Positions 8,532-44,391 of a stretch of DNA of 64,000 bases are shown here, piece by piece; position 1 is the first letter of the stretch; every line of letters begins with the position of its first letter. The notes under the pieces are model-generated. The model searched no databases. It saw only the letters and a program-made list of their open reading frames with translations, and was not told where the DNA came from. Source of the stretch: Vibrio pelagius (lineage in GTDB: Bacteria; Pseudomonadota; Gammaproteobacteria; Enterobacterales; Vibrionaceae); contig NZ_AP025504.1 of the NCBI RefSeq assembly GCF_024347575.1, positions 62,001 through 126,000 on the forward strand, in the 5' to 3' direction. The position numbers were made by a program, and so were the translations under genes.

Positions 8532-8546
8532 CAGCATATTCCATTG

Positions 8547-8564: not shown

Positions 8565-8572
8565 AGAATATC

Positions 8573-21205: not shown

Positions 21206-21230
21206 TTCAAACCTCGAGTTTGAATACTAT

Positions 21231-21282
21231 GCGAGACTAGCTCAGCTGGTAGAGCGCAACCTTGCCAAGGTTGAGGCCACGC
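21231..21282 (+). pseudogene. Truncated tRNA-Gly (GCC) remnant
   Basis: The 5' part matches tRNA-Gly: D arm TAGCTCAGCTGGTAGAGC and anticodon arm CAACCTTGCCAAGGTTG with anticodon GCC. After the variable loop the T arm and 3' acceptor strand are missing, and no GTTCGA or CCA follows. In E. coli the order Gly-Cys-Leu occurs in one operon (glyW-cysT-leuZ), so this looks like a decayed member of that array. Confidence 0.75.
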
Positions 21283-21398
21283 CTTAAGCCTTGAAGATAG
21301 GGAAGCTCGTGTGTCGCTCAAAATTTTGTAATGTTGATTAGCATCGACATTAAGATGGTGTTTACGAATCGTAACGGCATCGCAATAAAGAATTGCGT

Positions 21399-21485
21399 GC
21401 CCTGGTGGTGGAATTGGTAGACACAAGGGATTTAAAATCCCTCGGCGTTCGCGCTGTGCCGGTTCAAGTCCGGCCCGGGGCACCA
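21399..21485 (+). tRNA. tRNA-Leu (TAA), copy 1
   Basis: The 87-base class II tRNA has a long variable arm (CGGCGTTCGCGCTG), anticodon TAA in TTTAAAA, T arm GGTTCAAGTCC and encoded CCA. An identical copy is at 41879. Confidence 0.97.
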
Positions 21486-21540
21486 TCTATTTCTCTCTAA
21501 AGAGATATGTAGTTACCTTAGACTACAACAATCAATTTAA

Positions 21541-21614
21541 GGCGCCTTGGCAGAGTGGCTATGCAGCGGATTGCAAATCCGTGGACCTCGGTTCGACTCC
21601 GGGAGGCGCCTCCA
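21541..21614 (+). tRNA. tRNA-Cys (GCA), copy 2
   Basis: Identical to copy 1. It is the last gene of the first tRNA cluster. Confidence 0.97.
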
Positions 21615-25729: not shown

Positions 25730-25803
25730 GGCGCCTTGGCAGAGTGGCTATGCAGCGGATTGCAAATCCGTGGACCTCGGTTCGACTCCGGGAGGCGCCT
25801 CCA
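25730..25803 (+). tRNA. tRNA-Cys (GCA), copy 3
   Basis: Identical to the other copies, including the CCA. It stands alone, with its own promoter and terminator. Confidence 0.97.
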
Positions 25804-29033: not shown

Positions 29034-30005
29034 TCAAAAGCTAAAGTTGATTGGAAGAGTAAGGCTTAAGCGTGTACCAGTTATGCTCGTCGGGGGTTTA
29101 ATTAATGGTTGAGCGCGGTAAACAAGATCGACAGCTTCGTTATCTAACGAAAGGGTACCCGAACTTTTAACCAACACGACGTCAATCACATTACCTTGGC
29201 GATCCATTGTAAATTTGATAACCGGCATACCTTTCCTCTTCATGCGTTTCGCTTTTCTGGGGTAACGCTTTTCTCGCTCAAGATGTGCATGAAGTGCTTG
29301 CTGCCAATTGATTTTAGCCGCTTTTCCCGCTTCAGAAAGTTGTCCAACCCGAAGCGCACTCGCTTGCTGCTGGCTATTTTCAGCCATTAAATTAGGTTGA
29401 GATTTTGCTGTTTGCACGATTTGTTGCTGGTCTTTGAGATCATCACTGATTGGACGCGGTTTCTCAATCGGAACGGGTTTCACAATCGCCTTTTGGGGAT
29501 CGGGGGTGACTTTAGGTTTCGTCTTTTTGACAACGGGAGGCTCTGAACGACTTTTAGGTGGTACAGGCGTTTTCGCAATCTGTTTTGGCTCCTCGGGTTT
29601 AGTTTTCGTCTCTTTTTCCGGCTTGGCCTCTTGGTTTATTGCTGATGAAAGCGCGTTTGCTTTCTCAACCTCAACGAACTTTGGCTGCTCTTTCACAGCT
29701 TTCGGTTTGACGATTGGTTGTATCTCCTCAACCGTTGCAGCTTGGATCATCTGCTCTTGAGCTATCTCAGGTTGATTTTCGCCTATCTCCGTATCTTCTA
29801 CTTGCATTTTTGCCATCGCAAGAGGAGCAACAATCGTAACCTTAATGGGGGCAGCTTGCGGAGGCGGAGCAAAATCGTACTCAGGTGTCCAAAGGTAATA
29901 AACAAGAGCAGATAAGTGAAGGGCAACACTCAATGCAAAACCGACGACAAACCAAGGTCGACGAGGCTTACGTGATCGAACCCTTAAGGTGGCAAAAATA
30001 CTCAT
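29034..30005 (-). CDS. tonB: TonB energy transducer
   Basis: The 323-residue protein has a basic N-terminus and one membrane helix (about 18-38, with the SxxxH-type motif SVALHLSALVYYL). A long proline/lysine/glutamate-rich periplasmic spacer follows, then the C-terminal TonB domain (YPRKAKRMKRKGMPVIKFTMDRQGNV...LIKPP). It couples the proton motive force to TonB-dependent receptors. It is the last gene of exbB-exbD-tonB, 5 bases after exbD. Its promoter is the ECF-type site upstream of exbB, which ties it to the receptor at 36881-40003. Confidence 0.93.
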   Translation of the reverse strand: MSIFATLRVRSRKPRRPWFVVGFALSVALHLSALVYYLWTPEYDFAPPPQAAPIKVTIVAPLAMAKMQVEDTEIGENQPEIAQEQMIQAATVEEIQPIVKPKAVKEQPKFVEVEKANALSSAINQEAKPEKETKTKPEEPKQIAKTPVPPKSRSEPPVVKKTKPKVTPDPQKAIVKPVPIEKPRPISDDLKDQQQIVQTAKSQPNLMAENSQQQASALRVGQLSEAGKAAKINWQQALHAHLEREKRYPRKAKRMKRKGMPVIKFTMDRQGNVIDVVLVKSSGTLSLDNEAVDLVYRAQPLIKPPTSITGTRLSLTLPINFSF

Positions 30006-30010
30006 GCTTA

Positions 30011-30433
30011 TTACCCCTGTGGCGTTTCTAAGCCAACGAGCGCAATCTGGCTGTATCCAGCGCGTACAAGTGTGTTCATGACTTTCATGAGTTCGTCATA
30101 GGTAATGCTTTTGTCAGCTCTTAGATAAATTCTCTGATTTTGGTCCTCGATAAGTAGCGGAAGATCAAATGGTAGCTGTTCTAACGTTGAAGCCTTATCC
30201 TCACCTAATGTCAGCTCTAGCCCCTTACCAACGGTAAGGAACAAAGGTTCATCAGGTAAAGGTGTGGCTTCAGCAGAAGATGAAGGTAGATCGACGGGCA
30301 CATTAACGGTAGCCAATGGTGCTGCTACCATCACAATGATGAGTAGAACGAGCATTACATCAACCAAAGGTGTCACGTTGATATCGTGGTTTTCCACCAG
30401 TTCATCGCTGTCTGAAGATGTTTGAAATCCCAT
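30011..30433 (-). CDS. exbD: ExbD, TonB complex subunit
   Basis: The 140-residue protein has a short cytoplasmic N-terminus and one membrane helix with the conserved aspartate (INVTPLVDVMLVLLIIVMV). A periplasmic domain follows (YLRADKSITYDELMKVMNTLVRAGYSQIALVG). It forms the proton-driven motor with ExbB. It starts 1 base after the exbB stop. Confidence 0.94.
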   Translation of the reverse strand: MGFQTSSDSDELVENHDINVTPLVDVMLVLLIIVMVAAPLATVNVPVDLPSSSAEATPLPDEPLFLTVGKGLELTLGEDKASTLEQLPFDLPLLIEDQNQRIYLRADKSITYDELMKVMNTLVRAGYSQIALVGLETPQG

Positions 30434-30434
30434 A

Positions 30435-31280
30435 TCACACCACCTGCTTTAATTGTGATGGCATCTCTTCGTTAGTATCGCGGTCACAATCTCGGCTAAC
30501 AAGTACCATGGTCGCAACAGACACGTCTGTTAGGAGTGCTTTGTAGTGTCCAATACGTCGAGAAAAATAGTTATACATCATCACCGCAGGAATAGCGGCA
30601 ACCAAACCGATCGCTGTTGCGAGTAATGCTTCAGCTATACCAGGGGCGACAACGACAAGCGTCGTACTTTTGGCTTTCGCGATGCCGATAAACGCATTCA
30701 TAATTCCCCAAACTGTACCAAATAGGCCGACGAATGGGCTAACTGAACCTATGGTTGCCAAAATGCCCGTCAGTGACGTCATGTCTCGGGTTAACTCCGC
30801 TTGAACTCGCTCAAGTCTTAATTGAACGCGTTCTTTAATGCCGTTATGAGTCGCAGGGCCTTGACCGGACATATAGATTTCGTGCTGTGCAGCTGTCACC
30901 ACGGAGACTTCTTGCCCTGTTTGTAGTGTAAGAGCGGATTCCGCATGCTGAAGAGTGTCTGCGGTCACTAAGGTTGCTAATAGTTGCTTAGTTCTTTTCG
31001 TAGCAAGAACGAGCTGTATCTGCTTAGTAATGAAGACTGCCCAGCTCAAAATGGAAGCGACTAATAAAGCGATCATAACCGACTTAACTACCCAATCTGC
31101 AGCATGGTACATTCCCATTGGCGAAAGATCGTGGGTGATCAATGGATTTGAAGGTGGGGCAATCTGTTGGTTTGAGACCACAGTATCGGAGATAGGTTGA
31201 ATCGACGTATCACTCAAAGAATAATGGGAAAACGTCAGCATTAAAAACACTGACGCGATACGAAAAAAAAGCGTTGTCAT
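30435..31280 (-). CDS. exbB: ExbB, TonB complex subunit with N-terminal extension
   Basis: The 281-residue protein has a MotA/TolQ/ExbB proton-channel domain. Its conserved region includes [22 protein letters not shown] and [22 protein letters not shown] signal-like hydrophobic N-terminus and about 40 extra residues precede the first channel helix, as in the longer ExbB subgroup. It drives TonB with ExbD. The ribosome site is weak. The ECF-type promoter lies about 60 bases upstream. Confidence 0.93.
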
Positions 31281-31342
31281 TAGGTATCACTCACTAGGGA
31301 TTGAATTAGGCTGGTGGAATAAATTTCCACGTTGTCGCTACC

Positions 31343-31372
31343 TATACCGAATGAAATTAAAAAAACCGTAAA
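31343..31372 (-). promoter_or_regulatory. ECF-type promoter of exbB-exbD-tonB
   Basis: On the minus strand TTTACGG, 16 bases, then CGGTATA. It is one of five sites in this locus with the same two blocks and the same spacing. The next gene upstream, slam, ends at 31388. Confidence 0.8.
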
Positions 31373-31387
31373 GAAATTTTAATTATT

Positions 31388-32869
31388 TTAAAAACGCCTA
31401 GTGAACTTGATAGTGATCTCATTTTGCTGGTAGGTGTAGAGCCAATCAACATTGCTTTTTATTCTTTTATGATTCCAAACCAATGAAGGGGTAACACCGA
31501 ATAACTTGATATCTTTTAGCGAAGCAGAGAGCGCGTAATTTTGCTCTTTATCTCTACGTGTTTCGCTCAGAATGCTATTGAAGCCTTGGTAGTCACGATG
31601 TCTAAACGATCCAAAAAGTGTCAGATCAACCCAAGGAATCACATCTGAATTCAAGCCAATTTTACCGCCATAAAGCTCGTAAGCATGGGCTTGTTCTTTA
31701 TTCTGTTTACCTGTCCAGTCTATGCCACCGAATAACAATAAGTCATGATTAAATTGGTACCAATAAGTAAGATACGAAGCCAGTTGCCAGTCTGTTTGAT
31801 AGCTGAGCACATTTGGGATGTAGTCTTGATAGTCGGCTTTGAACTCGAATTTAAGGGCACTGTTTTGGCTGGTTGTTCTAAGCCAGTCTAACTTGACTCC
31901 TGAGCTGAAATAAACAGAACTGTTCGCGTAACGACTTAATTCAAAAGAGGGGCCGATTGATACTTTGTTGAGGCGATCATGAAAACTGTATCCGAAGCCG
32001 ATTCGAGAAGTATGTTCATTATAATCACTGTTGTTCCCGTAGTTAGTGCCATAAGTTAGGCCTTGTAAATGAATAGCGTGGTGTCGAGACAAAGAGAAAC
32101 GTTTATTGATACTCGCCTCAAAATCGATCCCATATGCTTTTTCTTTTTTAGGCGTGACACGGTCAAAGAGACACTGACCTGTGTTGGATGTCACTAGGCA
32201 GGTATAAGATTCAGAAGAGCTGTTTAAGTTATCATTAAAAGAACCGCCAATCGCCACAGACCCGTTCCAGCTGTTGCGAGCAATAAGCGCTTGGGTAAAG
32301 CTGTCGATGGTTCGAATCACACCAGCAGCTCTCGGATTTTGTGAGGGTATTTTTGATTTGATTTGATTGAACAGATTGAGTGCATCTCGGTTTTGGTTAC
32401 TTTCAAACAAGACTCGTGCTAGCTCTAACTGCGCGGGCATAAAATTGGGTTGTAAGGCTAATGCGTCTTCGAATGCGAGTTGGGCGTGTTCCAGATCACC
32501 TTTAGCTCGCGAGATTGCGCCGTCAGCGTATTTCAGTAACAACGGGTCAGGCTGTTCAAACTGTCGATAGATTTCCAGTAATTGGCTAGCTTGAACCCAT
32601 TGACGATAACGAACAGCAAGATGAAGAGCTTTCGCGACTTGATTCACATCATTTGTGTCGATCTGGTATCCAGTTTGGGCTGGTTTTTGGGAGTTAGCTT
32701 CGCGCTGGTTCTCTTCTTCAAGTATTGCTTGTTCTTTGTTTTGAGCCGACAGGGCGTCTCGTTGTTCAATACGAAACTGCGTATCCGTGTCTTGAGACCA
32801 AGAAAGAGGTGAAGAAAAGACGCAAGACAATAGTAGGCAACGTATAAGTGAAGTGGTGTTGGAGTTCAT
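31388..32869 (-). CDS. Slam-type outer-membrane translocator (TPR + DUF560 barrel)
   Basis: From the ATG at 32869 the protein is 493 residues. It has a signal peptide (to about 25), a TPR-like periplasmic region (about 80-200, with GDLEHAQLAFEDALALQPNFMPAQLELARVLF) and a C-terminal beta barrel of about 280 residues ending in phenylalanine. This is the layout of Slam proteins, which move TbpB-like lipoproteins or hemophilin to the cell surface. An in-frame ATG at 32914 lies inside a terminator-like hairpin and is rejected. The gene follows the hemophilin-like gene and probably exports that protein. Confidence 0.82.
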   Translation of the reverse strand: MNSNTTSLIRCLLLSCVFSSPLSWSQDTDTQFRIEQRDALSAQNKEQAILEEENQREANSQKPAQTGYQIDTNDVNQVAKALHLAVRYRQWVQASQLLEIYRQFEQPDPLLLKYADGAISRAKGDLEHAQLAFEDALALQPNFMPAQLELARVLFESNQNRDALNLFNQIKSKIPSQNPRAAGVIRTIDSFTQALIARNSWNGSVAIGGSFNDNLNSSSESYTCLVTSNTGQCLFDRVTPKKEKAYGIDFEASINKRFSLSRHHAIHLQGLTYGTNYGNNSDYNEHTSRIGFGYSFHDRLNKVSIGPSFELSRYANSSVYFSSGVKLDWLRTTSQNSALKFEFKADYQDYIPNVLSYQTDWQLASYLTYWYQFNHDLLLFGGIDWTGKQNKEQAHAYELYGGKIGLNSDVIPWVDLTLFGSFRHRDYQGFNSILSETRRDKEQNYALSASLKDIKLFGVTPSLVWNHKRIKSNVDWLYTYQQNEITIKFTRRF

Positions 32870-32881
32870 GTGGTGCTCATT

Positions 32882-32908
32882 AAAAAGAAGCAGCCGAAGC
32901 TGCTTCTT
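32882..32908 (-). terminator. Attenuator-like hairpin between the hemophilin-like gene and slam
   Basis: On the minus strand AAGAAGCAGC, TTCG and GCTGCTTCTT form a perfect 10-bp stem, followed by TTT. It lies between the two genes and has the form of a Rho-independent terminator. Partial read-through would give much more substrate than translocator. Confidence 0.75.
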
Positions 32909-32923
32909 AGCCATTGAAGGTGA

Positions 32924-33652
32924 TTACTGTTTTGCACCGCCGAATGCAGTATCAAGATCAGAGTTGCCAGCAAAAGTCGCAATACCAGCAAGTGTTGCTG
33001 CATCTGCGCCAAAGAAGTGACCTTGAGAAATACCTTGAGTTGTCACACCCGCTTGGTTAGCTGTTGCCGTACCATTGAACGAAGCGCTTGCTGCATCAAT
33101 CGTGCTATCCATATTGATAGATAGAGACGCATTAGCAATGTCGCCTGTTAGTGTTTGTTGAGCGAAATCAGCAGTAAACGTACCTGAAAGTTTGTTGCTA
33201 CCGCTAAAGTGGTTAATACCAGTAATGTTATACGTCGCGCTACCTGAAGTAGGAACAGTGGTACCAGTATTGTCGCCTACATAGTAAACAGTACGGTTGT
33301 TGTAATCTTTATCTTGTCTTCCTTCATACCACTCGCCAAACCAAACGTCTTGGTTTGCCGCTTGCGCAAAGTTGTAGTGCGTTGAGCCAAAGTGTTTACT
33401 ACCAGAGGTGTAAACGCCATCTCGTTCTGCACCGTTGAAAATATTATTTGCTAGACCTTCGAAATCGACACGCTTACCTGTTGAGCTGCCAATGCCGGCC
33501 TTACCTTTTGCGTGAAACAGTGGGACGTAAACTTCAGATTCACCAACCTGGCGTAGAGAGTCGTCGCTAATCGCGCCATCAAAACCTGCTTGTACAAGTG
33601 GGCTAAGGCCAATCATTGCAGCCGCGATCCATGAAAGTTGAACTGGTTTCAT
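32924..33652 (-). CDS. Hemophilin-like secreted Slam substrate
   Basis: The 242-residue protein has a cleavable signal peptide (cleavage near VQA-G at residue 22) and no lipobox, so it is secreted rather than lipidated. The C-terminal 90 residues look like the TbpB-type beta-barrel domain. The ending GHFFGADAATLAGIATFAGNSDLDTAFGGAKQ follows the usual F-x-G-x-x-A...FGGA-K pattern of Slam substrates. Acinetobacter HphA has this layout and takes haem from haemoglobin. The ligand here is not shown. A strong AAGGAA site and its own ECF-type promoter precede the gene, with slam directly downstream. Confidence 0.72.
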   Translation of the reverse strand: MKPVQLSWIAAAMIGLSPLVQAGFDGAISDDSLRQVGESEVYVPLFHAKGKAGIGSSTGKRVDFEGLANNIFNGAERDGVYTSGSKHFGSTHYNFAQAANQDVWFGEWYEGRQDKDYNNRTVYYVGDNTGTTVPTSGSATYNITGINHFSGSNKLSGTFTADFAQQTLTGDIANASLSINMDSTIDAASASFNGTATANQAGVTTQGISQGHFFGADAATLAGIATFAGNSDLDTAFGGAKQ

Positions 33653-33741
33653 TTTGATTCCTTTTAAATTGAATATGATAAGTAAAAAAGCAAACCCAAC
33701 ATCCGGTGCGCGCGACAGATGTCGTGCTTGCTTTCAACTAT

Positions 33742-33770
33742 TACACCGTTTAAGAAAGGGAGAACCGTAA
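33742..33770 (-). promoter_or_regulatory. ECF-type promoter of the hemophilin-like gene and slam
   Basis: On the minus strand TTACGG, 16 bases, then CGGTGTA, about 90 bases before the start codon. Confidence 0.8.
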
Positions 33771-33797
33771 TAGAGAATCGAATTTTTTAATAAAATT

Positions 33798-35177
33798 TTA
33801 TCGGCTAATGAAATTGTAGTCGCCGCCGACGCGCTCTATCAGCGTAAAGTCATTTGGCCCATTTAAACTCCAGGCAAATTCGAAAAGCACTCGAGTGAGT
33901 TTGCTCTGGGTTGGGGGAGAAAGCACAGTCAGGGTTTCACGGGTACCTGCTGGAATTACATAAACATCAGACTTAGCGAGTTCACCGAAAGGGGTTCTTA
34001 TGATGGGTTGTACGATATCTTTAAGGTCAGTCAAGGAAGTCACGGTAATAGTGATGTCTTTTTCGACGGCTTCAAACGTATAGGACCCTAAAGTGTAATA
34101 CTCAGGCACTTGTCCAGTATCATTGGTTAGATCTATGCTCTTCTCGTCATCAAAAGGTAGAAGTAAAGGTTCGGTTTCATCTCTCAGAAAGACTTTTGCG
34201 TGTGGGCCATTTAACGAAGCAACGCGCACGTATGTAGGTCTGCCAGGTAAATCGGTGAACTCGCCATCACTTACTTCGACACTGACAGCAAATTGCCCGC
34301 TCACATCGGCAACAAAGCTTGTGGTTTCGGCACTAGGGTCAGCGATAGTTGCATTGCTCCCTTGCGGTTTTGACACAAAATACCAATTAAAGGTGAGGGG
34401 GTCGCCGTCCGGGTCATAACTTTCACTGGCAGTGAAAGAAACCTTCATACCTTCAATGGCCAACATGGCTTGGGTATTATTAGCAGTTGGAGGTCGGTTT
34501 TGATGGTTTTCATTAAAGGTGACGGTTGTGGTCGCCTTGGTCGATAAGAAACCATCGGTGACGGTTAATTCCACCACATAGTCACCTGCCACATCAGCGG
34601 CTAAGTCGGGGTATTTTCCCTCATATTTACTGAGGCTAGGCTGACTCCCATCTGGCTGGTCGATAATTTTCCATTGACGGTACAGTTCATCGCCGTCAGC
34701 ATCCGTGGATGTGTCAAACAGCTTAACGGATTGAGACAGGGAAGCGCTATACGTTGGGGTAAGAGAGACCACCGGTGGCGAGTTGTCTTGGTCGGGTTTA
34801 GCCACTATTTTCACTTGATTTGGGCGACTGTTGACTTGGCCATCGTTGACCACCAACGAGAGATAATACGTACCAATCTGATCCGCCACGAAAGTCGGTT
34901 TGATGGCCTCCAAGCTGGAAAGTTGTGCTTCGCTACCTGCGGGTTTTTCTGAGAATGACCATGAATAAGAGATGAGGTCGTTGTCATAATCAACACTGCG
35001 CGTGCCGTCTAAGTGGACGACTTGATTAACTTTAACTTGTTGATTGATGCCAGCGATAGCGATCGGAGTTTGATTATTCGGGTCGCTTGTCGGCGATGAA
35101 TCAGAAGCGCTTCCATTACACGCCGTAATGAAAGCAAAAGAGAGAATTATTGGAAACTTGTAAGTATAGCCATGCAT
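33798..35177 (-). CDS. PKD-repeat lipoprotein 1
   Basis: The 459-residue protein has a lipoprotein signal with Cys20 (FITAC). Three PKD-type domains follow, each about 95 residues, with repeated patterns such as DGTRSVDYDNDLISYSWSF, DADGDELYRQWKI and DPDGDPLTFNWYF, and endings like YYLSLVVNDG. A C-terminal domain of about 130 residues (PEYYTLGSYTFEAVEKDITITV) is shared with the next lipoprotein upstream. PKD domains usually mediate binding at the cell surface. It is not part of the known hemophilin systems I recall. It has its own ECF-type promoter. The ribosome site is weak. Confidence 0.75.
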   Translation of the reverse strand: MHGYTYKFPIILSFAFITACNGSASDSSPTSDPNNQTPIAIAGINQQVKVNQVVHLDGTRSVDYDNDLISYSWSFSEKPAGSEAQLSSLEAIKPTFVADQIGTYYLSLVVNDGQVNSRPNQVKIVAKPDQDNSPPVVSLTPTYSASLSQSVKLFDTSTDADGDELYRQWKIIDQPDGSQPSLSKYEGKYPDLAADVAGDYVVELTVTDGFLSTKATTTVTFNENHQNRPPTANNTQAMLAIEGMKVSFTASESYDPDGDPLTFNWYFVSKPQGSNATIADPSAETTSFVADVSGQFAVSVEVSDGEFTDLPGRPTYVRVASLNGPHAKVFLRDETEPLLLPFDDEKSIDLTNDTGQVPEYYTLGSYTFEAVEKDITITVTSLTDLKDIVQPIIRTPFGELAKSDVYVIPAGTRETLTVLSPPTQSKLTRVLFEFAWSLNGPNDFTLIERVGGDYNFISR

Positions 35178-35233
35178 TGCAATACACCGTCGAGAGTAGA
35201 ATGTTAAGTCATCGTTTTTTTGCCTTTCCTTGC

Positions 35234-35262
35234 TATACCGTTTAAGAAAGAGAAAACCGTAA
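35234..35262 (-). promoter_or_regulatory. ECF-type promoter of PKD lipoprotein 1
   Basis: On the minus strand TTACGG, 16 bases, then CGGTATA, about 57 bases before the start codon. Confidence 0.82.
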
Positions 35263-35271
35263 TCAAAAAAT

Positions 35272-35298
35272 AAAAAAAGCGCGAATGTTCGCGCTTTT
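35272..35298 (-). terminator. Terminator of PKD lipoprotein 2
   Basis: On the minus strand the stem GCGCGAA / TTCGCGC, widened by A/T pairs, is followed by seven T's. It separates the two PKD genes, so each needs its own promoter. Confidence 0.88.
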
Positions 35299-35369
35299 CG
35301 TAGTTTTAGTTTGGAAGATACGGTTTTTAGCTTGGAAAGGTTGTGCTCTTGGTTTGGAAAATAGTGAAC

Positions 35370-36692
35370 TTAGTTCGCCTCAGCACTTAAGTCGTAAGCA
35401 ACGCCCATGTAGTTTGAGAAATCACTATCAAGGATGAACGAATATACAACGTTGGTTCGCGTGCCAGTCGTCGGCTTTGCCCACATTTTCACGTAAGCCA
35501 CATCCCCTGCATGTAGGACTTGGTTTAGTTCTATCCCTGTCATTTTCGGTGCATAATCTTCACCTCTGAAGTCCATCTCAGTAATTTCACTAATGGTGTA
35601 GTCCTTACCAACCGCCTCTAGAGTATAAGTACCCACTAGAACGTATTCGGGTGCATCACCTGTGATGGCTTTATCTAGGGTAATCGGCGTCGGTGTGTAA
35701 GGTAGGGCATGTACTGTTTTTTCATCCCCAAAGGTAAAGATGATTTCGCTGCTGCCTGCGGCACTCGCGCTCAAACGAACCATATCGGCTTCGCTGGTGA
35801 ATTCACCGTCATTTACAGTTAGCGAGAAGAGGTAATCACCCACTTGGTCGGGTGTGAAATCTGGTTTCGCGACCGTAGAGTCTGACAGCTCAGCTGTACT
35901 GTTTTCCGGTTTAGAAAGTAGTTTCCACGTGTACGTAATCGCATCTTCATTGCCGTCGTAGCTGCCGCTGCCATCTAAGGTTGCTGTTTCTCTCATCTCT
36001 AAAGACTTTACGCCACCCGCATTAGCGACTGGAGCAACGTTTTCTGCTGAATAAGACACAGTCACTTCTTGGCTAACGCTTTCGTAACCGTCGCTTACTG
36101 TTAATTTCAGCTTGTAGTCACCGGCTGTATTAGAAAGTAGTACTGCTGTTGATGTTGCGCTGCCCGTGAGTTTCATTGTCGCATTATCCGGCGTTGATAA
36201 AAGCGCCCATTGATAAGTTAAAACATCGCCATCAAGGTCGACGGCGTTAGACGGAATTTCGATAGATTTGGTTATAGCAACACTTGGTGGTGTTGCTATA
36301 TCGATAATTGGCGCCACGTTTTGTGATGCGTCAGTGACTTCAATAGTTTGTTTTGTGGTACTTGAAGTGCCAGATACGACACTTTCTAGTTCAAATGTGT
36401 AATCACCAACAACATCTGGAGTGAAATAAGGTGAAATGGCCTTGCTTGCGTTAAGTGCAACGTTACTGCCATCAGGTTTGCTTGTGAGCTTCCATTCGAA
36501 AGTCATGTTTTCGTTGTAGGTATCTAAACCTTGGGTTGCATCTAAACGTACACGCTTGCCTAATTTGGCATAAGATTTTTCTACAGTTGCGTTATTTGAA
36601 GAGTTTGAACTGCTGTCGCTGCTCCCACTACCGCATGCGATAAGCGCTGGCATAGCGGCAGCAAGTAAGGTCCATTTTAGTTTTGAAGTCAT
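35370..36692 (-). CDS. PKD-repeat lipoprotein 2
   Basis: From the ATG at 36692 (AGGA 8 bases upstream) the protein is 440 residues, with lipobox LIAC at Cys20 and a serine/asparagine linker. The same three-PKD plus C-terminal-domain layout as lipoprotein 1 is present, and the C-terminal segment PEYVLVGTYTLEAVGKDYTI is clearly related. Two upstream in-frame ATGs (36719 and 36710) would hide the signal peptide and are rejected. The two genes are diverged paralogs from a duplication. Location at the outer membrane is inferred, and function is unknown. Confidence 0.78.
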   Translation of the reverse strand: MTSKLKWTLLAAAMPALIACGSGSSDSSSNSSNNATVEKSYAKLGKRVRLDATQGLDTYNENMTFEWKLTSKPDGSNVALNASKAISPYFTPDVVGDYTFELESVVSGTSSTTKQTIEVTDASQNVAPIIDIATPPSVAITKSIEIPSNAVDLDGDVLTYQWALLSTPDNATMKLTGSATSTAVLLSNTAGDYKLKLTVSDGYESVSQEVTVSYSAENVAPVANAGGVKSLEMRETATLDGSGSYDGNEDAITYTWKLLSKPENSTAELSDSTVAKPDFTPDQVGDYLFSLTVNDGEFTSEADMVRLSASAAGSSEIIFTFGDEKTVHALPYTPTPITLDKAITGDAPEYVLVGTYTLEAVGKDYTISEITEMDFRGEDYAPKMTGIELNQVLHAGDVAYVKMWAKPTTGTRTNVVYSFILDSDFSNYMGVAYDLSAEAN

Positions 36693-36760
36693 CGGTTTTT
36701 TCCTAATCATGAGTGGCAAAGCTGTTTGAAATCAGCCATGCAAATGTCAATTTCATTGGG

Positions 36761-36790
36761 TATACCGAATCAAGATGAGAAACCCGTAAA
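36761..36790 (-). promoter_or_regulatory. ECF-type promoter of PKD lipoprotein 2
   Basis: On the minus strand TTTACGG, 16 bases, then CGGTATA, about 69 bases before the chosen start. Confidence 0.82.
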
Positions 36791-36816
36791 GAAAAACGCC
36801 CCGAAAGGCGTTTTAT
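36791..36816 (-). terminator. Terminator of the TonB-dependent receptor gene
   Basis: On the minus strand AAAACGCC / GGCGTTTT with a 6-nt loop is followed by T's. It directly abuts the next ECF-type promoter. Confidence 0.85.
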
Positions 36817-36880
36817 TATGGTTTTGATTGATACGTTTGATTCAAAATGAGTCTGAAAGGCAATATCAGTGGTTTTTTTA

Positions 36881-39800
36881 TTAAAACTTACCACTTAGTT
36901 TGAAGGTTAATGTTCGGCCTGGAGCGGGCATACCTGATACCGAACCTGTATCTAAGTAATAAACATCAGATAAATTGTTACCAATCAGTTCAGCACTCAG
37001 TTTTTTTGTGAGGGCATATTTGATGTAGGCATCATAAGTAATCACCTCAGTTCTTTTTATGATTTCGTCATCATGACTCGCTGAAACGTAGTTCGTACGT
37101 ACGCCTGTTTCTAAGTCGGTATCAAAGAAACGAGTACCTAGTAAAATACTGCCTGTATATTCAGGTGCTGCATGGGCAGCTAGGAAGCTTCCTTCTGAAA
37201 ATCCACCACGAACACAGGTTTCTTCAGATGGGGTATTGCCTAAAATTACATCCTTTATATAACCTTGAGCGGCTGAGTTTCTGTCACAAACTTCGTTTCG
37301 GAAGTTGTAAGCAATTGAGGCATCAGCAAAATAATCGCTGTTATCAAACTGCCCATTGATCTCAATACCGCTGGTTCGTTGGCTATCTAGGTTAGTGAAG
37401 TTATAACTGTCACGGTCTCTATCCATCACGTCGTCAATGGTTTGATCAAAATAGGTCAACTTAAAGCTCGCATTATCGAAGTAGTGAATGTAGGCCGTCT
37501 CGTACAGTTTGGCACGCTCAGGTTGTAGTGGAGCACTTGCGACGGGGTTGCTACTGAATCCACTGGTACTTTCAAATAAGCTTGGGAAACGTAAAGTCTC
37601 AGCATAGCGTGTGTAAATTCGGCTGTTATCGCTGATTAACCATGTGGCTGTGACAGAAGGCATCCAACCGCTACCGCTAGTTTTATACTGGGTATTGTAT
37701 TCTTCAGAAGTCTCAAGCGACTTGGCTTTACAACTGCCTTCGATGTAGTTTTCTTGTTGCATGGCAATACGACAAGCATTGTTCGCCAGATCGAGCTCGT
37801 TGTGGCTATTAGTTAACCAATTGGATGCATGGTGCTCGATGAAAGTGGTTTGATTTTGCGCCGCTTCGGTTTGTGTTTGTAACTTTTGTTGCAATATGGC
37901 ATCGAAATTAGCAAGTTCTGTTTGTCGTTCGTCTAGCTGACTTTGGTATTCACTGGCTTGATCGGGGAACATAACGATCAAGTTTTGTAATCTATCTATC
38001 TCTGTGTTGAGGTTTTGTTGCGTGAAAGTGATTCTTACCTCATGCTCTGCATTTGCTACATTTTGTGCGATCTCTTCCGGCGCATAGGTCTCTAGTGTTT
38101 GATACGTTAATTGGTAACCGTCTTTCTTGTACTCTTTAAGAGGACTGATGTCGCCAGAGTTTACTTGATGTTCGATATAGTAATCTGTCGCGTTGTAAGA
38201 GATGTAACGGACACCTGAATCTAACACGATGGATTCATGTGGACGCCATTCAATCTTTATTGCGCCGTTGTATTCTTCTCTTTCACCGGCACGGACTGCA
38301 CCACCATAGAAATCGACAAGGTTAGCTAGTCCCTCTTTAGGGTTCAATTCGTGCATCATGTAACTGCCCGACAATGTCATATCAATCGAGTCTGTCAGTA
38401 GCATCTTGTTATTAAAATCGAACCCGTACCTTTGCTCATCACGGTTAACGACGGATGTGTTTATGATGATGTCAGGCGTATCGCTTTTGTAGTTCACGAA
38501 GTTGGGGAAGCCATAACCAGTATTGCTGCGCGAATCTGTTTTTGTCAGCCATAAGTTGGTGCTTAGGTTTAGCAGATCGTGTTCGGGGTTTGCTCGAAAT
38601 TTCAGTGTGTAGGCTTGCATTTTTGCGTTTGCAAGCGGCCACTGAGCGAGTCCGTCGGAATTTCGGTAGTCTGAACGACTCGCCAATATTTCACCATGAG
38701 TACTTTCCGTGTATCGGATACTGGCGTGCAGTTTGTAGTAATCACTGAAATTGATCGTACCTTTTAATAGTGCTGATTCCATTTCAGCCGATGTGTTGGG
38801 TACTTCGTGGCCAGGGTAGTGTACCAATGCCATGTGTTCAGGTCTTAAAAGTGGATTTCGCCCGGCGACTTGGTCACTCGAGTTATTATCAAATGGTTTC
38901 GAGTAGAAGTCAGCTTTACTGGTGCCTGAGTAGTAGTTGCCTCGATTTCGGTATGCGTATGCGGCTAACCAGTCAAATTTTGGTTCGATTCCTGCGAGTG
39001 CGAGGCGATAGGCGACGTCTTCTCCATTGAAGGGATTATCTGTTTTGTTGTCTCTGGTTTGGAAACGAAGTTCTGGATCGTCGTACAGTGGAACACCACC
39101 TAGCTCGGTATAAGCAGGGACATCTTGCCAACGTTTTCCGGTATGCAGTCGCGCTTTGTTTGGCTCGATGGAGTTACTGCTGCTTTCGGCAATTAACTCA
39201 ATACCAAATTGTTCTCCTTCTTCAACGATATCTTGCGGTTGCAAGGTGGTCACTTTTACGGCACCACCTGTTGAGGTATTGATCTCTGAGTTTAACTGAG
39301 CACCTTGGTAGACGGTCATACTGCCGATAAGGTTGGGGTCAATGTAGTTTCTGTTCGATGACCCACGATAGCCGTTATACACTGAAATACCTTGTTCAGT
39401 ACCATCGATAACAACAGGTACACGACCAAAGCCTTGTACACCGCGTACGTTCGGGTCGATACTGCCACCGCCATTTCGTGCTTCGCCACTGTGTGTGTTG
39501 GCGACACCGGTGAATAGATCCGCCGCACTGGTCCCTTTGAAACGCTCGATTTCTTCTTTCCCAAGATAAGCGGTTGCGACGTCTTTGTCGTACACATCCA
39601 TTTCACCGTCTGTGTCTCTTTGATAAGCATCATCAAAATGGGTTCGAACTTGTATAGCATCGAGTGTCATCGAGTCTGTAGTCGGTACGAGGTAGTAAAC
39701 ACCATCAGACTGCTTTTGTGCTTGCAGACCGGTATTGGTCAACAGCATAGAAAGCGCTTGTTCGCTGTTGTATTGACCGACTAAACCTTGGCTGTAGAGC

Positions 39801-40003
39801 TCTGAAGAGAGTGACGAATCTAGATAAAATTCGATACCCGATTCAACGGCAAAGTGGTTGAGAGCACTGTCTAGGGTGCCTGCTGGAATATTATATTGAT
39901 GGTCTTCTGCAGCGTGGGAAGCAAAAGGAAAACTCAATATAACGACACCGAGTTTTATCGTGGTAAGTTTGGAGAGTAGCGAGCGCTGCTTGGCATTTGG
40001 CAC
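36881..40003 (-). CDS. TonB-dependent receptor with STN signalling domain
   Basis: The 1040-residue receptor has a signal peptide (to about 32). An STN domain at about 37-110 (YNIPAGTLDSALNHFAVESGIEF...YLVP) passes signals to FecR-type anti-sigma factors. A TonB box region and plug (about 140-270, NVRGVQGFGRVPVVIDGTEQG) follow, then a long 22-strand-type barrel ending in phenylalanine. It is larger than usual because of an inserted helical, glutamine-rich segment around residues 635-770 with two cysteines. The start is GTG with AAGGA 7 bases upstream. Linkage suggests haem or haem-protein import, but the ligand is not proven. Confidence 0.9.
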   Translation of the reverse strand: MPNAKQRSLLSKLTTIKLGVVILSFPFASHAAEDHQYNIPAGTLDSALNHFAVESGIEFYLDSSLSSELYSQGLVGQYNSEQALSMLLTNTGLQAQKQSDGVYYLVPTTDSMTLDAIQVRTHFDDAYQRDTDGEMDVYDKDVATAYLGKEEIERFKGTSAADLFTGVANTHSGEARNGGGSIDPNVRGVQGFGRVPVVIDGTEQGISVYNGYRGSSNRNYIDPNLIGSMTVYQGAQLNSEINTSTGGAVKVTTLQPQDIVEEGEQFGIELIAESSSNSIEPNKARLHTGKRWQDVPAYTELGGVPLYDDPELRFQTRDNKTDNPFNGEDVAYRLALAGIEPKFDWLAAYAYRNRGNYYSGTSKADFYSKPFDNNSSDQVAGRNPLLRPEHMALVHYPGHEVPNTSAEMESALLKGTINFSDYYKLHASIRYTESTHGEILASRSDYRNSDGLAQWPLANAKMQAYTLKFRANPEHDLLNLSTNLWLTKTDSRSNTGYGFPNFVNYKSDTPDIIINTSVVNRDEQRYGFDFNNKMLLTDSIDMTLSGSYMMHELNPKEGLANLVDFYGGAVRAGEREEYNGAIKIEWRPHESIVLDSGVRYISYNATDYYIEHQVNSGDISPLKEYKKDGYQLTYQTLETYAPEEIAQNVANAEHEVRITFTQQNLNTEIDRLQNLIVMFPDQASEYQSQLDERQTELANFDAILQQKLQTQTEAAQNQTTFIEHHASNWLTNSHNELDLANNACRIAMQQENYIEGSCKAKSLETSEEYNTQYKTSGSGWMPSVTATWLISDNSRIYTRYAETLRFPSLFESTSGFSSNPVASAPLQPERAKLYETAYIHYFDNASFKLTYFDQTIDDVMDRDRDSYNFTNLDSQRTSGIEINGQFDNSDYFADASIAYNFRNEVCDRNSAAQGYIKDVILGNTPSEETCVRGGFSEGSFLAAHAAPEYTGSILLGTRFFDTDLETGVRTNYVSASHDDEIIKRTEVITYDAYIKYALTKKLSAELIGNNLSDVYYLDTGSVSGMPAPGRTLTFKLSGKF

Positions 40004-40041
40004 CGTAATTTCCTTATCGGGATTTCTAACTGACTGTCAGA

Positions 40042-40070
40042 TACACCGAACAAGAATCAGAAATCCGTAA
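40042..40070 (-). promoter_or_regulatory. ECF-type promoter of the receptor gene
   Basis: On the minus strand TTACGG, 16 bases, then CGGTGTA, about 40 bases before the GTG start. It lies just after the fecR-like stop codon. Confidence 0.82.
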
Positions 40071-40077
40071 TAAAATT

Positions 40078-41013
40078 TTATTTTGCTGTGATGGTGACCC
40101 AAAGAGGGGTTCGGTAATGGATTCTTACCGGCAGTATCTGGCTGATATTGTGTAAGGTTTTATCAATATCTTTGGTCGAGAACACACCGGTAAGTTTGAG
40201 TGCTGCGGCACTGGCATCGACGTTGATGATGCCGCGTCGATAACGCCCTAATTCGTTGATGAAGGTTTTGAGCTGTGTCGCTTCCGCCATGATCTTATGC
40301 TCTAACCAAAGCATGTCGGAATCTTGGGTCTGGTTTGGCTGCGATACTGTGCGGCGATCGAAGTGGGCAGTTTGCCCTGCGAAAAGATGCGGTTTCCCCA
40401 TCCCAAGCATAGGTTGAATTTCGACTTCACCCTCGTAAACAGAGACTTGAGTGGTGTCGGCATGCTCTCGGATACTGAATTGGGTTCCGATAGGCAACAC
40501 CAAACCCCGCGAAGTCGAGACTGTTAACGGGCTACGATGATGTGTATTGGTGATCATGACTTCACCGCGTTCGATGTGAATATCTCGCTGATGATTATCA
40601 AAATCGACAAATAATTTGGAATCAGTATTGAGCGCCAATTGTGTGCCGTCGAGCAGCGTCATCGAACGAATTTCGCCCGTCGCCGTTGAGTATTCGGTAC
40701 CTGTTGGTGTTGGCCTGTAAATCGCCATGCCTGAACCTAGTGCGACGAACGAAAGTGCGCTTATGGATAAGAATTCGCGACGGCTGACTCTCGGCGGTTT
40801 ACGCGTCAAGACCTGCTTGCTAATTGTTCCTTTAGGAATGGCACAAAACTTACTTTGTAGCAGTTCTAACTTTTGCCATGCCAAGGCGTTGTTAGGGTGG
40901 GCAAGTCTCCAACACTCGAACGAGTCGTGATCTTGTTGCGTGGCATCATCAGCCCAAAGACGTGCCATCCAAACCGATGCTTGCTCTATGGTCTCCGGTG
41001 GTAATTGTTGCAT
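40078..41013 (-). CDS. FecR-family anti-sigma/sensor protein
   Basis: The 311-residue protein has an N-terminal cytoplasmic domain (IEQASVWMARLWADD...CWRLAHPNNALAWQ) that binds the sigma factor. A single membrane segment preceded by twin arginines (SRREFLSISALSFVALG) follows, then the periplasmic FecR domain and a C-terminal STN-like fold (VFSTKDIDKTLHNISQILPVRI). It should receive the signal from the receptor's STN domain and control the sigma factor. The twin-arginine motif suggests Tat-dependent insertion, reported for some FecR homologs. It starts 1 base after the sigma gene. Confidence 0.9.
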   Translation of the reverse strand: MQQLPPETIEQASVWMARLWADDATQQDHDSFECWRLAHPNNALAWQKLELLQSKFCAIPKGTISKQVLTRKPPRVSRREFLSISALSFVALGSGMAIYRPTPTGTEYSTATGEIRSMTLLDGTQLALNTDSKLFVDFDNHQRDIHIERGEVMITNTHHRSPLTVSTSRGLVLPIGTQFSIREHADTTQVSVYEGEVEIQPMLGMGKPHLFAGQTAHFDRRTVSQPNQTQDSDMLWLEHKIMAEATQLKTFINELGRYRRGIINVDASAAALKLTGVFSTKDIDKTLHNISQILPVRIHYRTPLWVTITAK

Positions 41014-41014
41014 T

Positions 41015-41530
41015 TTACACCTCGCTAAGCATGGCTAGCATGCAACCTTGGAGTCCCTTAGCAACGTACTTTTCCACAGATGATACTGAAACTTCAAGTT
41101 CGAAGGCGATCTCTTTGTAGCTTTTGCCTTCGAGCTGTCTCATGAGCAGTGCTTGGCGAGCTTTGATTGGGAGTTTGTGGAGTAGGGCATCGATCTCAAC
41201 AAGTGCTTCAACCACTATGGTGTGGTCTTCCGGAGAACTGGCGACCAGAGAGGGTTCTTGTTCAATGAGCTCTAAATAGGCACTTTCTACACGACGTTTT
41301 CGATAAAGATCAATCACCAACCCTTTAGCGATATGAGTCAGGTACTTTCTTGAATCTTTGTATTCAGGCAGCTTACCTTTGGTTAACAAGCGAAGATAAG
41401 TATCTTGAACCAGATCAGCCGTAGTGTCAGGGCATCCTAAGCGTCGTTTAATAAACACCGATAACCAGCTGTGATGCTCTTGGTACATTTGATCCACGCT
41501 GTGTGAGGTGTTGTTGCTCGCTACGGTCAT
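41015..41530 (-). CDS. FecI-like ECF sigma factor
   Basis: From the ATG at 41530 the protein is 171 residues. It has sigma region 2 (DLVQDTYLRLLTKG...RKYLTHIAKGLVIDLYRKRR) and region 4 (LPIKARQALLMRQLEGKSYKEIAFELEVSVSSVEKYVAKG). An upstream open stretch runs to 41572, but it would translate the Fur box, and AGGAG lies near the 41530 start, so 41530 is chosen. The likely targets are the five TTACGG-N16-CGGTRTA sites in this locus. Fur control of this gene would make the whole regulon respond to iron. Confidence 0.92.
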   Translation of the reverse strand: MTVASNNTSHSVDQMYQEHHSWLSVFIKRRLGCPDTTADLVQDTYLRLLTKGKLPEYKDSRKYLTHIAKGLVIDLYRKRRVESAYLELIEQEPSLVASSPEDHTIVVEALVEIDALLHKLPIKARQALLMRQLEGKSYKEIAFELEVSVSSVEKYVAKGLQGCMLAMLSEV

Positions 41531-41554
41531 TCCCTGATACTCCTTACTAACCTT

Positions 41555-41573
41555 AATGATAATTATTATCATT
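41555..41573. promoter_or_regulatory. Fur box upstream of the fecI-like gene
   Basis: AATGATAATTATTATCATT is a perfect 9-1-9 palindrome and contains the classic 7-1-7 Fur motif TGATAAT-N-ATTATCA. It ends 25 bases before the chosen sigma start codon. The remaining 300 bases to the tRNA genes are AT-rich with no gene seen. Confidence 0.92.
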
Positions 41574-41878: not shown

Positions 41879-41965
41879 GCCCTGGTGGTGGAATTGGTAG
41901 ACACAAGGGATTTAAAATCCCTCGGCGTTCGCGCTGTGCCGGTTCAAGTCCGGCCCGGGGCACCA
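41879..41965 (+). tRNA. tRNA-Leu (TAA), copy 2
   Basis: 87 bases, identical to the copy at 21399, with CCA encoded. Confidence 0.97.
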
Positions 41966-42018
41966 TCTACTTACTCGAAAGAGGGAACAGAGTCGTACTC
42001 TTAAAACACGCACAATTT

Positions 42019-42092
42019 GGCGCCTTGGCAGAGTGGCTATGCAGCGGATTGCAAATCCGTGGACCTCGGTTCGACTCCGGGAGGCGCCTCCA
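42019..42092 (+). tRNA. tRNA-Cys (GCA), copy 4
   Basis: 74 bases, identical to the other copies. It lies 53 bases after tRNA-Leu and is the last conserved gene before the defence cassette. Confidence 0.97.
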
Positions 42093-42828: not shown

Positions 42829-43911
42829 ATGTCGCAATATAATTTAGTTCAGATCTTAGCTGGTTCTCCAGTGCCCCCAATGCAACGAATAAAAATTTTT
42901 TCTCCAGATGAATGGGAAGAATTCGTTGAGGAGTGGTTAACGGTTAAGAAGAAAGAATTTCTTGATACGGATAGATTAGGTGGTGCTGGTGATAAAGGGC
43001 GTGATGTCGTTGGTTATGTTACATGTCCTAAACAGTATCCTGATTCTTATGTTTGGGATAATTTTCAGTGCAAGCACTATGATCATCCGTTGATGCCTAG
43101 TGATGTCTGGGCGGAGTTCGGTAAACTCTGTTATTACACCTTCATCGGTGATTTTCCTGTTCCAAGGTACTATTTTTTTGTAGCTCCTCAAGGTTTGGGA
43201 ACTTCATTGTCAGATTTACTTCGTAAACCTACCGTTCTAAAAAAAGAACTTAAGGCGAATTGGGACAAGTACTGTAAACATAAAATAACGAAAACAGTGA
43301 GTGGTGGAATTTCGCTCGAAGGGGATCTACTAAAATACATTGATGAGTTTGACTTTTCTATTTTCTACAAAATGAAGCCACTTACTCTTGTAGAAGAACA
43401 TGCTAAGTCTCGCTATCACGCGACAAGGTTTGGTGGCGGTTTACCTGATCGTCCTAATGTTGGTGATGTCCCCCAAGATATTGCGTCAAGTGAGTTGGTA
43501 TACATTTCCAAGTTGCTAGACGCCTATAGCGAAGCTGATAACGCTGAGTACATAAAGGTTAGCGACTTGCCTAAAGGGAAAGCAACAAATAAGCACTTTA
43601 AACGCGCTCGTAAGAATTTCCATAAAGCTGAACAGCTTAAGCAGTTTTCTAGAGATACACTCCCCCCAGGTATATTTGAAAAATTCCAAGGAGAAATATT
43701 ATCTGGAGTCGTCGATATAGTAGACGAAGAGCATGAGAACGGTTTCGTGAGAGTGAAAACTGTAGAAAAGGAAGCTCGTCGATTGGCTATAACATCAAAC
43801 CCACTGACACTATGCAGTGATGGTGAGGATAGGGCTGGTATATGTCATCACCTAGCCAATGATAATAGCGGAGACAATGAGTTTGTTTGGGTAGCTGCTG
43901 ATGACGACTAA
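42829..43911 (+). CDS. ABC-3C effector with restriction-endonuclease-like domain
   Basis: The N-terminal part carries a PD-(D/E)xK-type pattern: GAGDKGRDVVGY (D59), then FQCKHY (Q80-C-K82), as in Mrr-like DNA nucleases. The C-terminal 200 residues have no motif I know. The two following genes are the middle component and ATPase of the ABC three-component systems predicted by Aravind and colleagues, so this is the effector position. The ATG at 42829 has a weak ribosome site. An in-frame ATG at 42880 is a possible alternative. It overlaps the next gene by 11 bases. Confidence 0.72.
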   Translation: MSQYNLVQILAGSPVPPMQRIKIFSPDEWEEFVEEWLTVKKKEFLDTDRLGGAGDKGRDVVGYVTCPKQYPDSYVWDNFQCKHYDHPLMPSDVWAEFGKLCYYTFIGDFPVPRYYFFVAPQGLGTSLSDLLRKPTVLKKELKANWDKYCKHKITKTVSGGISLEGDLLKYIDEFDFSIFYKMKPLTLVEEHAKSRYHATRFGGGLPDRPNVGDVPQDIASSELVYISKLLDAYSEADNAEYIKVSDLPKGKATNKHFKRARKNFHKAEQLKQFSRDTLPPGIFEKFQGEILSGVVDIVDEEHENGFVRVKTVEKEARRLAITSNPLTLCSDGEDRAGICHHLANDNSGDNEFVWVAADDD

Positions 43912-44389
43912 AACTAATCTCGCGTTTAATAATCATGTTGAATATGGCTTACGTGCGTTGGCAATATTGAAGCACCTATATCCCACATACGGTGATCTCG
44001 ATAAGCTAGCTTGCCTCGACTACATTGTTGTCCACTCTGGAGACTTTTCTAACTCATTAGATAGCTTGCATGCACCTATACCTTATAGAAGCAGTGAGCT
44101 TTATATTAGGCGCTCATTAATGAGAGATGGCTTAAATCTACTGTGCCAATATGGCTTGGCGTCAGTTATAAACGATGAATCTGGCTTGCAGTATGTACTT
44201 ACGGAAGAAGGTGAACCGTTTTTGGATATGCTCGGCTCAGAGTATGTAGAACATGTTCAGAAGAGAGCCAAGTGGGCAGTCAGGAAGTTTGGGTTGCTTG
44301 ATAGCGAGAGTTTAAGAAGAAGTATCCAGCAGTCGTTTAATGGTACGGATGCAGAGATCGCATTCAGAACACACATTTTGAGAGGTTAG
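43901..44389 (+). CDS. ABC-3C middle component
   Basis: The 162-residue protein looks all-helical, with a winged-helix-like centre (YIRRSLMRDGLNLLCQYGLASVINDESGLQYVLTEEGEPFLDML). Size, position and the GLRALAILKHLYP start fit the middle component type 2 of ABC-3C systems. That component is predicted to link the ATPase to the effector. It overlaps the effector gene by 11 bases and is followed by the ATPase 2 bases later. Confidence 0.68.
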   Translation: MTTKTNLAFNNHVEYGLRALAILKHLYPTYGDLDKLACLDYIVVHSGDFSNSLDSLHAPIPYRSSELYIRRSLMRDGLNLLCQYGLASVINDESGLQYVLTEEGEPFLDMLGSEYVEHVQKRAKWAVRKFGLLDSESLRRSIQQSFNGTDAEIAFRTHILRG

Positions 44390-44391
44390 TT

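Follow-up and report, generated by a model that had tools for sequence, protein, structure and literature searches.

The locus described here lies in a 64,000-nucleotide stretch of the Vibrio pelagius genome (4.96 Mb), called the window below, and coordinates are window positions unless another locus is named. The open reading frame (ORF) list together with Pfam and NCBIfam profiles gave ten genes from 29034 to 41572, all on the minus strand, in the order fecI, fecR, hphR, pkd1, pkd2, hphA, slam, exbB, exbD, and tonB. By its gene content this is a hemophilin-type haem uptake locus, real and well conserved, and its five internal promoter-like elements make it more than one simple operon. It is probably run by a HasI-like surface-signalling switch that would act through five promoters, with PKD lipoproteins as accessory proteins. 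G and L numbers are our handles for genomes and loci.

Hemophilin and the conserved gene set

The original prediction had placed a FecI-like sigma factor, FecR, a Slam-like translocator, ExbB-ExbD-TonB, and two PKD lipoproteins in one direction, and the Pfam and NCBIfam profiles agree with it. The 242-residue secreted protein encoded by hphA is, by its profile matches, a hemophilin. It scored 52.0 bits against HphA_N (cut-off 22) and 81.9 bits against HphA_C (cut-off 31) in Pfam, and 129.2 bits against NF041636 (cut-off 80) in NCBIfam. It matched PDB entry 8gm3 at E = 5.2e-98 and shares 74% identity with the V. harveyi protein that, when mature, corresponds to 8gm3. The mature protein of V. 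harveyi NBRC 15634 equals 8gm3 at all 219 aligned residues; therefore, the hemophilin in 8gm3 comes from a locus built in the same way (L058/L091). We take 8gm3 to belong to Shin 2024. All ten genes are also present in the V. harveyi NBRC 15634 locus (G172/L058/L091), together with five exact elements, and no difference in build was seen.

Two histidines, H47 and H87, were invariant in 13 of 13 aligned HphA sequences and are candidate haem ligands. They align with histidines of A. baumannii HphA at chain positions 33 and 96 of 7re4, taken as H43 and H106 through an offset of 10; H43 and H106 ligate haem in that protein (PMC8560813). Slam and HphR-type receptor genes neighbour hphA. The predicted TbpB-like barrel and haem pocket of the 242-residue protein were thus borne out at the level of sequence by HphA_N, HphA_C, and the aligned histidines. 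Two tandem hphA-type genes precede slam in five loci: L109, L110, L113, and L135, which are of the Stenotrophomonas type, and L144 of A. baumannii.

The Vibrionaceae sample comprised 296 genomes, 26 of which contained HphA_C. Matches to fecI, fecR, hphR, hphA, slam, exbB, exbD, and tonB were found in each of these 26 (28 locus stretches with the window), and both pkd1 and pkd2 were present in 16. Short or split genes were fecR in L076 and L077, hphR and slam in L078, and pkd2 in L060 (G274), the last divided into two overlapping frames at L060 positions 8560-8859 and 7470-8681. The G142 locus is split by about 240 kb on one contig into fecI-fecR-hphR-pkd1 and pkd2-hphA-slam-exbBD-tonB, with elements kept in both halves; the draft genome G124 has the same two halves on different contigs.

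A survey of named genomes covered the best 80 of 108 hemophilin places, with at most 10 kb on each side, E ≤ 1e-6, and either strand. Slam was found in all 80, an HphR-type receptor in 77, both fecI and fecR in 69, either of the two in 73, exbB plus exbD plus tonB in 27, and PKD in 14. Among the seven loci without fecI or fecR, less than 3 kb upstream of hphA was fetched for L086, L092, L105, L114, and L116; L141 and L149 lacked both genes despite upstream sequence. The contig of L124, labelled as Rickettsia endosymbiont of Bradysia coprophila, bears a Stenotrophomonas-like hemophilin locus, which is probably a binning error.

The joining of hemophilin with FecI/FecR, which had been put forward as new in this Vibrio locus, was rejected as a novelty. 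It is already known from Acinetobacter: the A. baumannii hemO cluster contains genes for an extracytoplasmic function (ECF) sigma factor and an anti-sigma factor (PMC10483418), and 69 of the 80 named loci have both genes. That cluster also resembles the Vibrio locus in holding a TonB receptor, hemophilin, Slam, and a TonB-related gene together (PMC10483418, PMC8560813). In contrast to it, the Vibrio locus lacks a haem oxygenase gene, with the haem-utilisation gene HutZ elsewhere in the genome, and has ExbB, ExbD, and TonB as a full set along with two PKD lipoproteins and five element copies. New parts, all of them read from sequence, are the set of promoter-like elements, the two PKD lipoproteins and the tip domain they carry, and the hphA leader hairpin.

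Five matched elements and the FecI-type sigma factor

The element TTACGG-N16-CGGTRTA precedes hphR, pkd1, pkd2, hphA, and exbB. The pattern was derived from the intergenic gaps before hphR, pkd1, pkd2, and hphA, and the exbB site was found afterwards. Five sites in the window match the strict pattern exactly, compared to a mean of 0.37 at up to two mismatches in 100 shuffles, and these five were the only exact matches in the genome. Three one-mismatch sites were found elsewhere in the genome, compared to three plus three matches of a reversed-pattern control.

The relaxed pattern (TTRMGG) gave 97 sites across the 26 hemophilin-bearing Vibrionaceae genomes, 87 in hemophilin loci (counting both halves of the split loci G142 and G124) and 10 elsewhere; its reversed control gave 15 sites summed over the same genomes. 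With at most one mismatch within -320..+60, the element was found before hphR in 25/26, pkd1 in 15/16, pkd2 in 13/16, hphA in 24/26, and exbB in 25/26 genomes. Under the same settings, fecI had it in 1/26, and fecR, slam, exbD, and tonB in 0/26 each. Letter-shuffled controls reached a per-gene match in at most 0.2%. Furthermore, the hphR element was found with up to two mismatches in 8 of 63 scanned loci from outside the Vibrionaceae (L100, L101, L102, L121, L134, L136, L143, and L159). These belong to five genera outside the pattern definition: Pseudoalteromonas (2), Oceanimonas (1), Microbulbifer (1), Marinobacterium (2), and Marinomonas (2). In the metagenome-assembled genome (MAG) locus L092, elements belong to hphA and exbB.

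The HasI -35 sequence of Serratia marcescens is TTTACGGGTTT (PMC9249621). The elements, noticed in the gaps before they were compared with this published sequence, appear to resemble it, and 18 of the 28 locus sequences contain one or more copies of TTTACGGGTTT at any position. A generic sigma-70 scan gave 13 promoter-like sites, fewer than the 22.0 in shuffles. We infer that the elements are promoters of the FecI-type sigma factor encoded in the locus. This factor is the only match of the genome to NF041727 at E ≤ 1e-8, that is, the product of its one FecI-type sigma gene; because the genome has a single such gene, one Fur-gated FecI-type sigma factor acting on five promoters would be the simplest account.

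The listed fecI start, ATG 41572, falls within the Fur-box-like palindrome AATGATAATAATTATCATT, and the start is likely ATG 41530 behind AAGGAG, which would give 171 amino acids. Scored against the Fur consensus, a Fur-box-like site near fecI was found in 26/26 Vibrionaceae loci at 14-17/19 and was equalled by 0-8 of 200 letter shuffles. In the receptor, the HphR N-terminus aligns with the signalling regions of the FecA, HasR, FoxA, and PupB structures, and HasR is the best solved relative of HphR.

The Has system of S. marcescens (HasI-HasS-HasR-HasA) places a haem hemophore and its receptor under a FecI-type sigma factor, as proposed for the Vibrio locus, and has a Fur-controlled sigma gene (hasI) and the -35 sequence that the elements resemble, whereas HasA is exported by HasD/HasE (PMC9249621). 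The Vibrio carrier would instead be exported by Slam. The two systems also differ in that HasI drives hasS, whereas the Vibrio fecR has no element and five units each have a copy of it. HasA is not known to be related to hemophilin.

On this basis, the following course is proposed. Low iron would lead Fur to release fecI-fecR. HphA, exported by Slam, would take haem from haemoproteins and pass it to HphR, and the loaded receptor would signal through its candidate STN domain to FecR, freeing the sigma factor. The sigma factor would then fire the five promoter copies of hphR, pkd1, pkd2, hphA(-slam), and exbB(-exbD-tonB), so that receptor, lipoproteins, carrier, exporter, and energy source would rise together, some units being insulated by terminators. 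The PKD lipoproteins would hold the ligand near HphR by an Ig (immunoglobulin)-like tip. In the original prediction, carrier, exporter, energy source, and receptor would be induced together by the ligand; the five matching elements lend the shared control support from sequence, and the induction by ligand is a step that we infer.

The switch may instead respond to haem or haemoglobin bound directly by HphR, with hemophilin a mere amplifier that is unneeded for induction, a reading to which we give somewhat less than an even chance. A. baumannii HphR is said to retain haemoprotein uptake without HphA (PMC8560813), and transcription of hasR and hasS is started by free haem as well as by haem-hemophore (PMC9249621). 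Against this, hphA carries the element of the receptor gene, which fits a hemophore feedback loop without proving it.

Several findings weigh against the HasI-like switch with five promoters and PKD accessory proteins. Given how the pattern was derived, the independent tests are limited to the exbB site, the rarity of the element elsewhere, and the other genera. The exact HasI 11-mer is present at one of the five window elements (pkd1), the others being 1-3 letters off. The relaxed pattern matches one further place in this genome, within a receptor gene. Two 2-mismatch matches were found where none were expected, at fecI of L142 and slam of L145. The hphR element was not met in 55 of the 63 loci from outside the Vibrionaceae, including those of Acinetobacter and Stenotrophomonas; therefore, the promoter either changes with the sigma factor or is absent there. 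In the Acinetobacter, Stenotrophomonas, and Alcanivorax-type loci, no element was found before hphR, pkd, hphA, or exbB. FecI, FecR, and HphR all scored under the NCBIfam cut-offs, and since those for FecI and FecR are equivalog cut-offs, the two proteins are of the FecI/FecR type rather than citrate orthologues. The STN match of HphR (E 1.2e-5, 25.4 bits) is under the Pfam cut-off of 28.4; of the predicted STN-bearing TonB receptor, the receptor and Plug were found and the STN match is weak. Finally, PKD genes are absent from 10 of the 26 Vibrionaceae hemophilin genomes and are therefore not essential for hemophilin uptake.

The further site in this genome, G000:C2:1371178, was rejected as an added regulon member because it lies within the coding sequence of another receptor gene. 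The ORFs listed around the out-of-locus site G210:C132 place it likewise within a receptor gene; of the nine other out-of-locus sites, surroundings were fetched for this one and for G012:C2:918940.

If the elements are sigma promoters, a guess about regulation becomes a set of named DNA elements, and Slam-exported hemophilins would have a link, through promoter sequence, with the classic Has system. The pattern can be searched for genes of the hemophilin response in marine bacteria.

PKD lipoproteins and their tip domain

PKD1 and PKD2 each have a lipobox cysteine and PKD repeats (Pfam), and both end in a domain without a Pfam match that is predicted as Ig-like, called the tip domain here. A profile search of the tip domain against solved structures gave no match better than E 0.039, and the whole PKD1 model gave Ig-repeat structural matches with no informative fold. 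The PKD proteins were rejected as Slam cargo because TbpB and HphA_C were unmatched at E ≤ 0.1 and the predicted tip is a sandwich; for the tip domain alone, both were unmatched at E ≤ 10.

A PKD1 search that scored at most five candidates a genome gave matches in 34 of the 296 Vibrionaceae genomes. Lipoproteins of the pkd1/pkd2 build were found in 16 of these 34; the matches in the other 18 were partial and lay in PKD repeats, and the tip domain was found at E ≤ 0.1 in 0 of 14 scanned loci of the 18 (stretches up to about 3.7 kb, some genes partial). Alcanivorax hemophilin loci have PKD lipoprotein counterparts.

Most likely, the two PKD lipoproteins assist the receptor as accessory proteins in the outer membrane and would hold the ligand near HphR by the Ig-like tip. 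They could also be adhesins or glycan-binding surface proteins that are co-regulated with haem uptake in a host contact programme and have no direct role in delivering haem, which we regard as less likely than not. Their distribution argues against such a role: all 16 genomes with the lipoproteins also belong to the 26 hemophilin-bearing ones (hypergeometric 4.8e-20, a value that ignores relatedness), 14 of these 16 have the PKD genes as a single block flanked by hphR and hphA, most with their own elements, and in G142 pkd1 stays with hphR and pkd2 with hphA despite the split.

HpuA/HpuB and the TbpB-type surface lipoproteins are similar to the accessory arrangement in having a lipoprotein beside a TonB-dependent receptor (role of HpuA, PMC8560813). 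They differ from the PKD lipoproteins, which have no TbpB-barrel match and a tip predicted as an Ig-like sandwich. A bolder proposal, which we consider unlikely, is that the paired PKD lipoproteins are a new co-receptor class: surface stalks whose Ig-like tips capture haemoproteins or loaded hemophilin for HphR. Each lipoprotein gene would have its own HasI-like promoter, through which the sensing loop would dose every part of the uptake machinery, with the conserved hairpin of the hphA leader as a second control. If so, the pair would do for hemophilin receptors what HpuA/TbpB does for theirs.

HphR itself has a long Glu/Gln-rich insert at residues ~608-780, probably helical, between two conserved positions. 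The insert was considered as a candidate partner of the PKD proteins. It measures 173-176 residues in ten Vibrio receptors with PKD, the longest of 46 aligned, compared to 24-170 residues in receptors without PKD and 35 in two Alcanivorax-type receptors with PKD.

In the portions available of the hemophilin papers searched (PMC8406197, PMC8560813, and PMC12282271 included; Shin 2024 and Grossman 2024 outside the search), no mention of PKD lipoproteins was met. In the original prediction they were an addition not known from described hemophilin systems, and the locus brings in two conserved lipoproteins and a tip domain without a Pfam match that those papers do not mention.

The tip domain was considered as exclusive to hemophilin loci, and this was rejected because it also occurs elsewhere. 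Within the class, it was found in 3 of 369 genomes, namely this one, G434, and G574. In G434, it lies beside fecI-fecR-receptor with a divergent exbB-exbD-tonB, and hphA was unmatched. Copies were present in 6 of 17 genomes in the family of G574 and 4 of 147 in that of G434. Apart from G434, no hemophilin-locus genes were seen in the fetched stretches of these copies, and the neighbours tested included uvrA, a WYL regulator, and a lipoyl-synthase-like gene. Locus L169 (9406-19230) has fecI-fecR-receptor-PKD lipoprotein and a divergent exbB-exbD-tonB, with hemophilin and Slam unmatched; it may be a related system that takes up a different ligand.

Hairpins, feature coordinates, and flanks

The pkd1 and pkd2 elements sit directly 3' of terminator-like hairpins. 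Across loci, a terminator-like hairpin stood before the element (up to two mismatches) in 11/15 hphR-pkd1 gaps, 9/12 pkd1-pkd2 gaps (13 examined), 9/16 pkd2-hphA gaps, and 4/8 hphR-hphA gaps (9 examined), and in 0/21 fecR-hphR gaps (25 examined) and 0/22 slam-exbB gaps (25 examined). The frequent position of the elements between hphR, pkd1, pkd2, and hphA just behind such hairpins would suit a conserved regulator-binding or RNA feature instead of sigma promoters, but this is very improbable given the two blocks at a fixed 16-base spacing (itself part of the pattern) around a variable spacer, the likeness to the HasI -35 sequence, and a placement upstream of genes that leaves out fecR, slam, exbD, and tonB.

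By folding and alignment, the hphA leader forms a covarying hairpin. The RNA between the hphA element and the ATG folds as a hairpin whose loop core is invariant, apart from one C/T position, in eight Vibrio leaders. The z-scores of six folded leaders were -3.45 (window), -3.83, and -4.51, with weaker values of -0.84, -1.70, and -1.69. In the alignment, 17 cells changed on both sides yet kept pairing, compared to a shuffle mean of 6.5 (0/500 reached 17), and 80.9% of cells paired compared to 70.3% when shuffled. Sliding the structure by +1 gave 13 cells and other shifts at most 6. Further pair types showed no excess over shuffles (219/500). Only the sequences themselves were used for aligning, and the structure was taken from the window sequence, which favours that structure; the G136 tapetis leader, with a divergent loop form, was left out of the eight.

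The loop was absent from the leaders of L068 and of loci without PKD. Its motif occurs once in this genome. Of 9 genomes searched, 6 contain it, and G172 and G210 each have one additional match; the three genomes without the motif have no PKD genes. No Rfam match was found at E ≤ 1.

The likely start of pkd1 is ATG 36692, compared to the listed ORF that begins at TTG 36719.

Table 1. Features of the hemophilin-type locus in window coordinates. pLDDT, predicted local distance difference test; pTM, predicted template modelling score.
Feature	Coordinates	Strand	Basis
fecI-type (HasI-like) ECF sigma factor	41015..41530	-	NCBIfam FecI-type E 1.5e-46 to 2.7e-45, under cut-offs
Fur-box-like palindrome AATGATAATAATTATCATT before fecI	41555..41573	.	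14-17/19 to Fur consensus
fecR-type anti-sigma factor	40078..41013	-	Pfam FecR 3.3e-20, DUF4880 1.4e-10
Promoter-like element TTACGG-N16-CGGTGTA 5' of hphR	40042..40070	-	Pattern match
hphR, TonB-dependent hemophilin receptor, candidate STN signalling domain	36881..40003	-	TonB-hemin 2.5e-48 (under cut-off); Plug, barrel, STN (under cut-off)
Palindrome just before pkd1 element	36793..36814	.	Scan: terminator-like on +; on - strand followed by TTTTTCT
Promoter-like element 5' of pkd1	36761..36789	-	With the preceding base, contains TTTACGGGTTT
pkd1 lipoprotein: lipobox LIAC, Ser-rich linker, PKD domains, C-terminal domain	35370..36692	-	Model pLDDT 86.1
pkd1 C-terminal domain	35373..35768	-	No Pfam match
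Terminator-like hairpin just before pkd2 element	35274..35299	-	Terminator scan
Promoter-like element 5' of pkd2	35234..35262	-	Pattern match
pkd2 lipoprotein: lipobox ITAC, PKD domains, C-terminal domain	33798..35177	-	Pfam
pkd2 C-terminal domain	33801..34223	-	Predicted Ig-like beta sandwich, pLDDT 92.0, pTM 0.85; no Pfam match
Promoter-like element 5' of hphA	33742..33770	-	Pattern match
hphA leader hairpin, 10-base loop TCGCGCGCAC	33686..33735	-	z -3.45; covariation; no Rfam match at E ≤ 1
hphA, secreted hemophilin; lipobox-free signal peptide	32924..33652	-	HphA_C 5.9e-23, HphA_N 1.1e-13
slam, type XI secretion outer membrane protein	31388..32914	-	SlipAM 3.7e-50, TPR_Slam 2.4e-19
Promoter-like element 5' of exbB	31343..31371	-	Found with the pattern derived from the other four
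exbB	30435..31280	-	TIGR02797 6.4e-84, above cut-off
exbD	30011..30433	-	Pfam ExbD 1.8e-24
tonB	29034..30005	-	TIGR01352 4.6e-16; TonB_C

Three genes adjoining the locus at 42829-46206 match an ABC-three-component system (CTD6, MC2, and an AAA protein under cut-off) and are a candidate defence system. The tRNA-Leu/tRNA-Cys genes repeat on both flanks of the 21-42 kb stretch (21132-21614, 25730-25803, and 41879-42092). The end of the locus adjoins one tRNA-Leu/tRNA-Cys pair, and the outer neighbours vary by species, as at an insertion hot spot.

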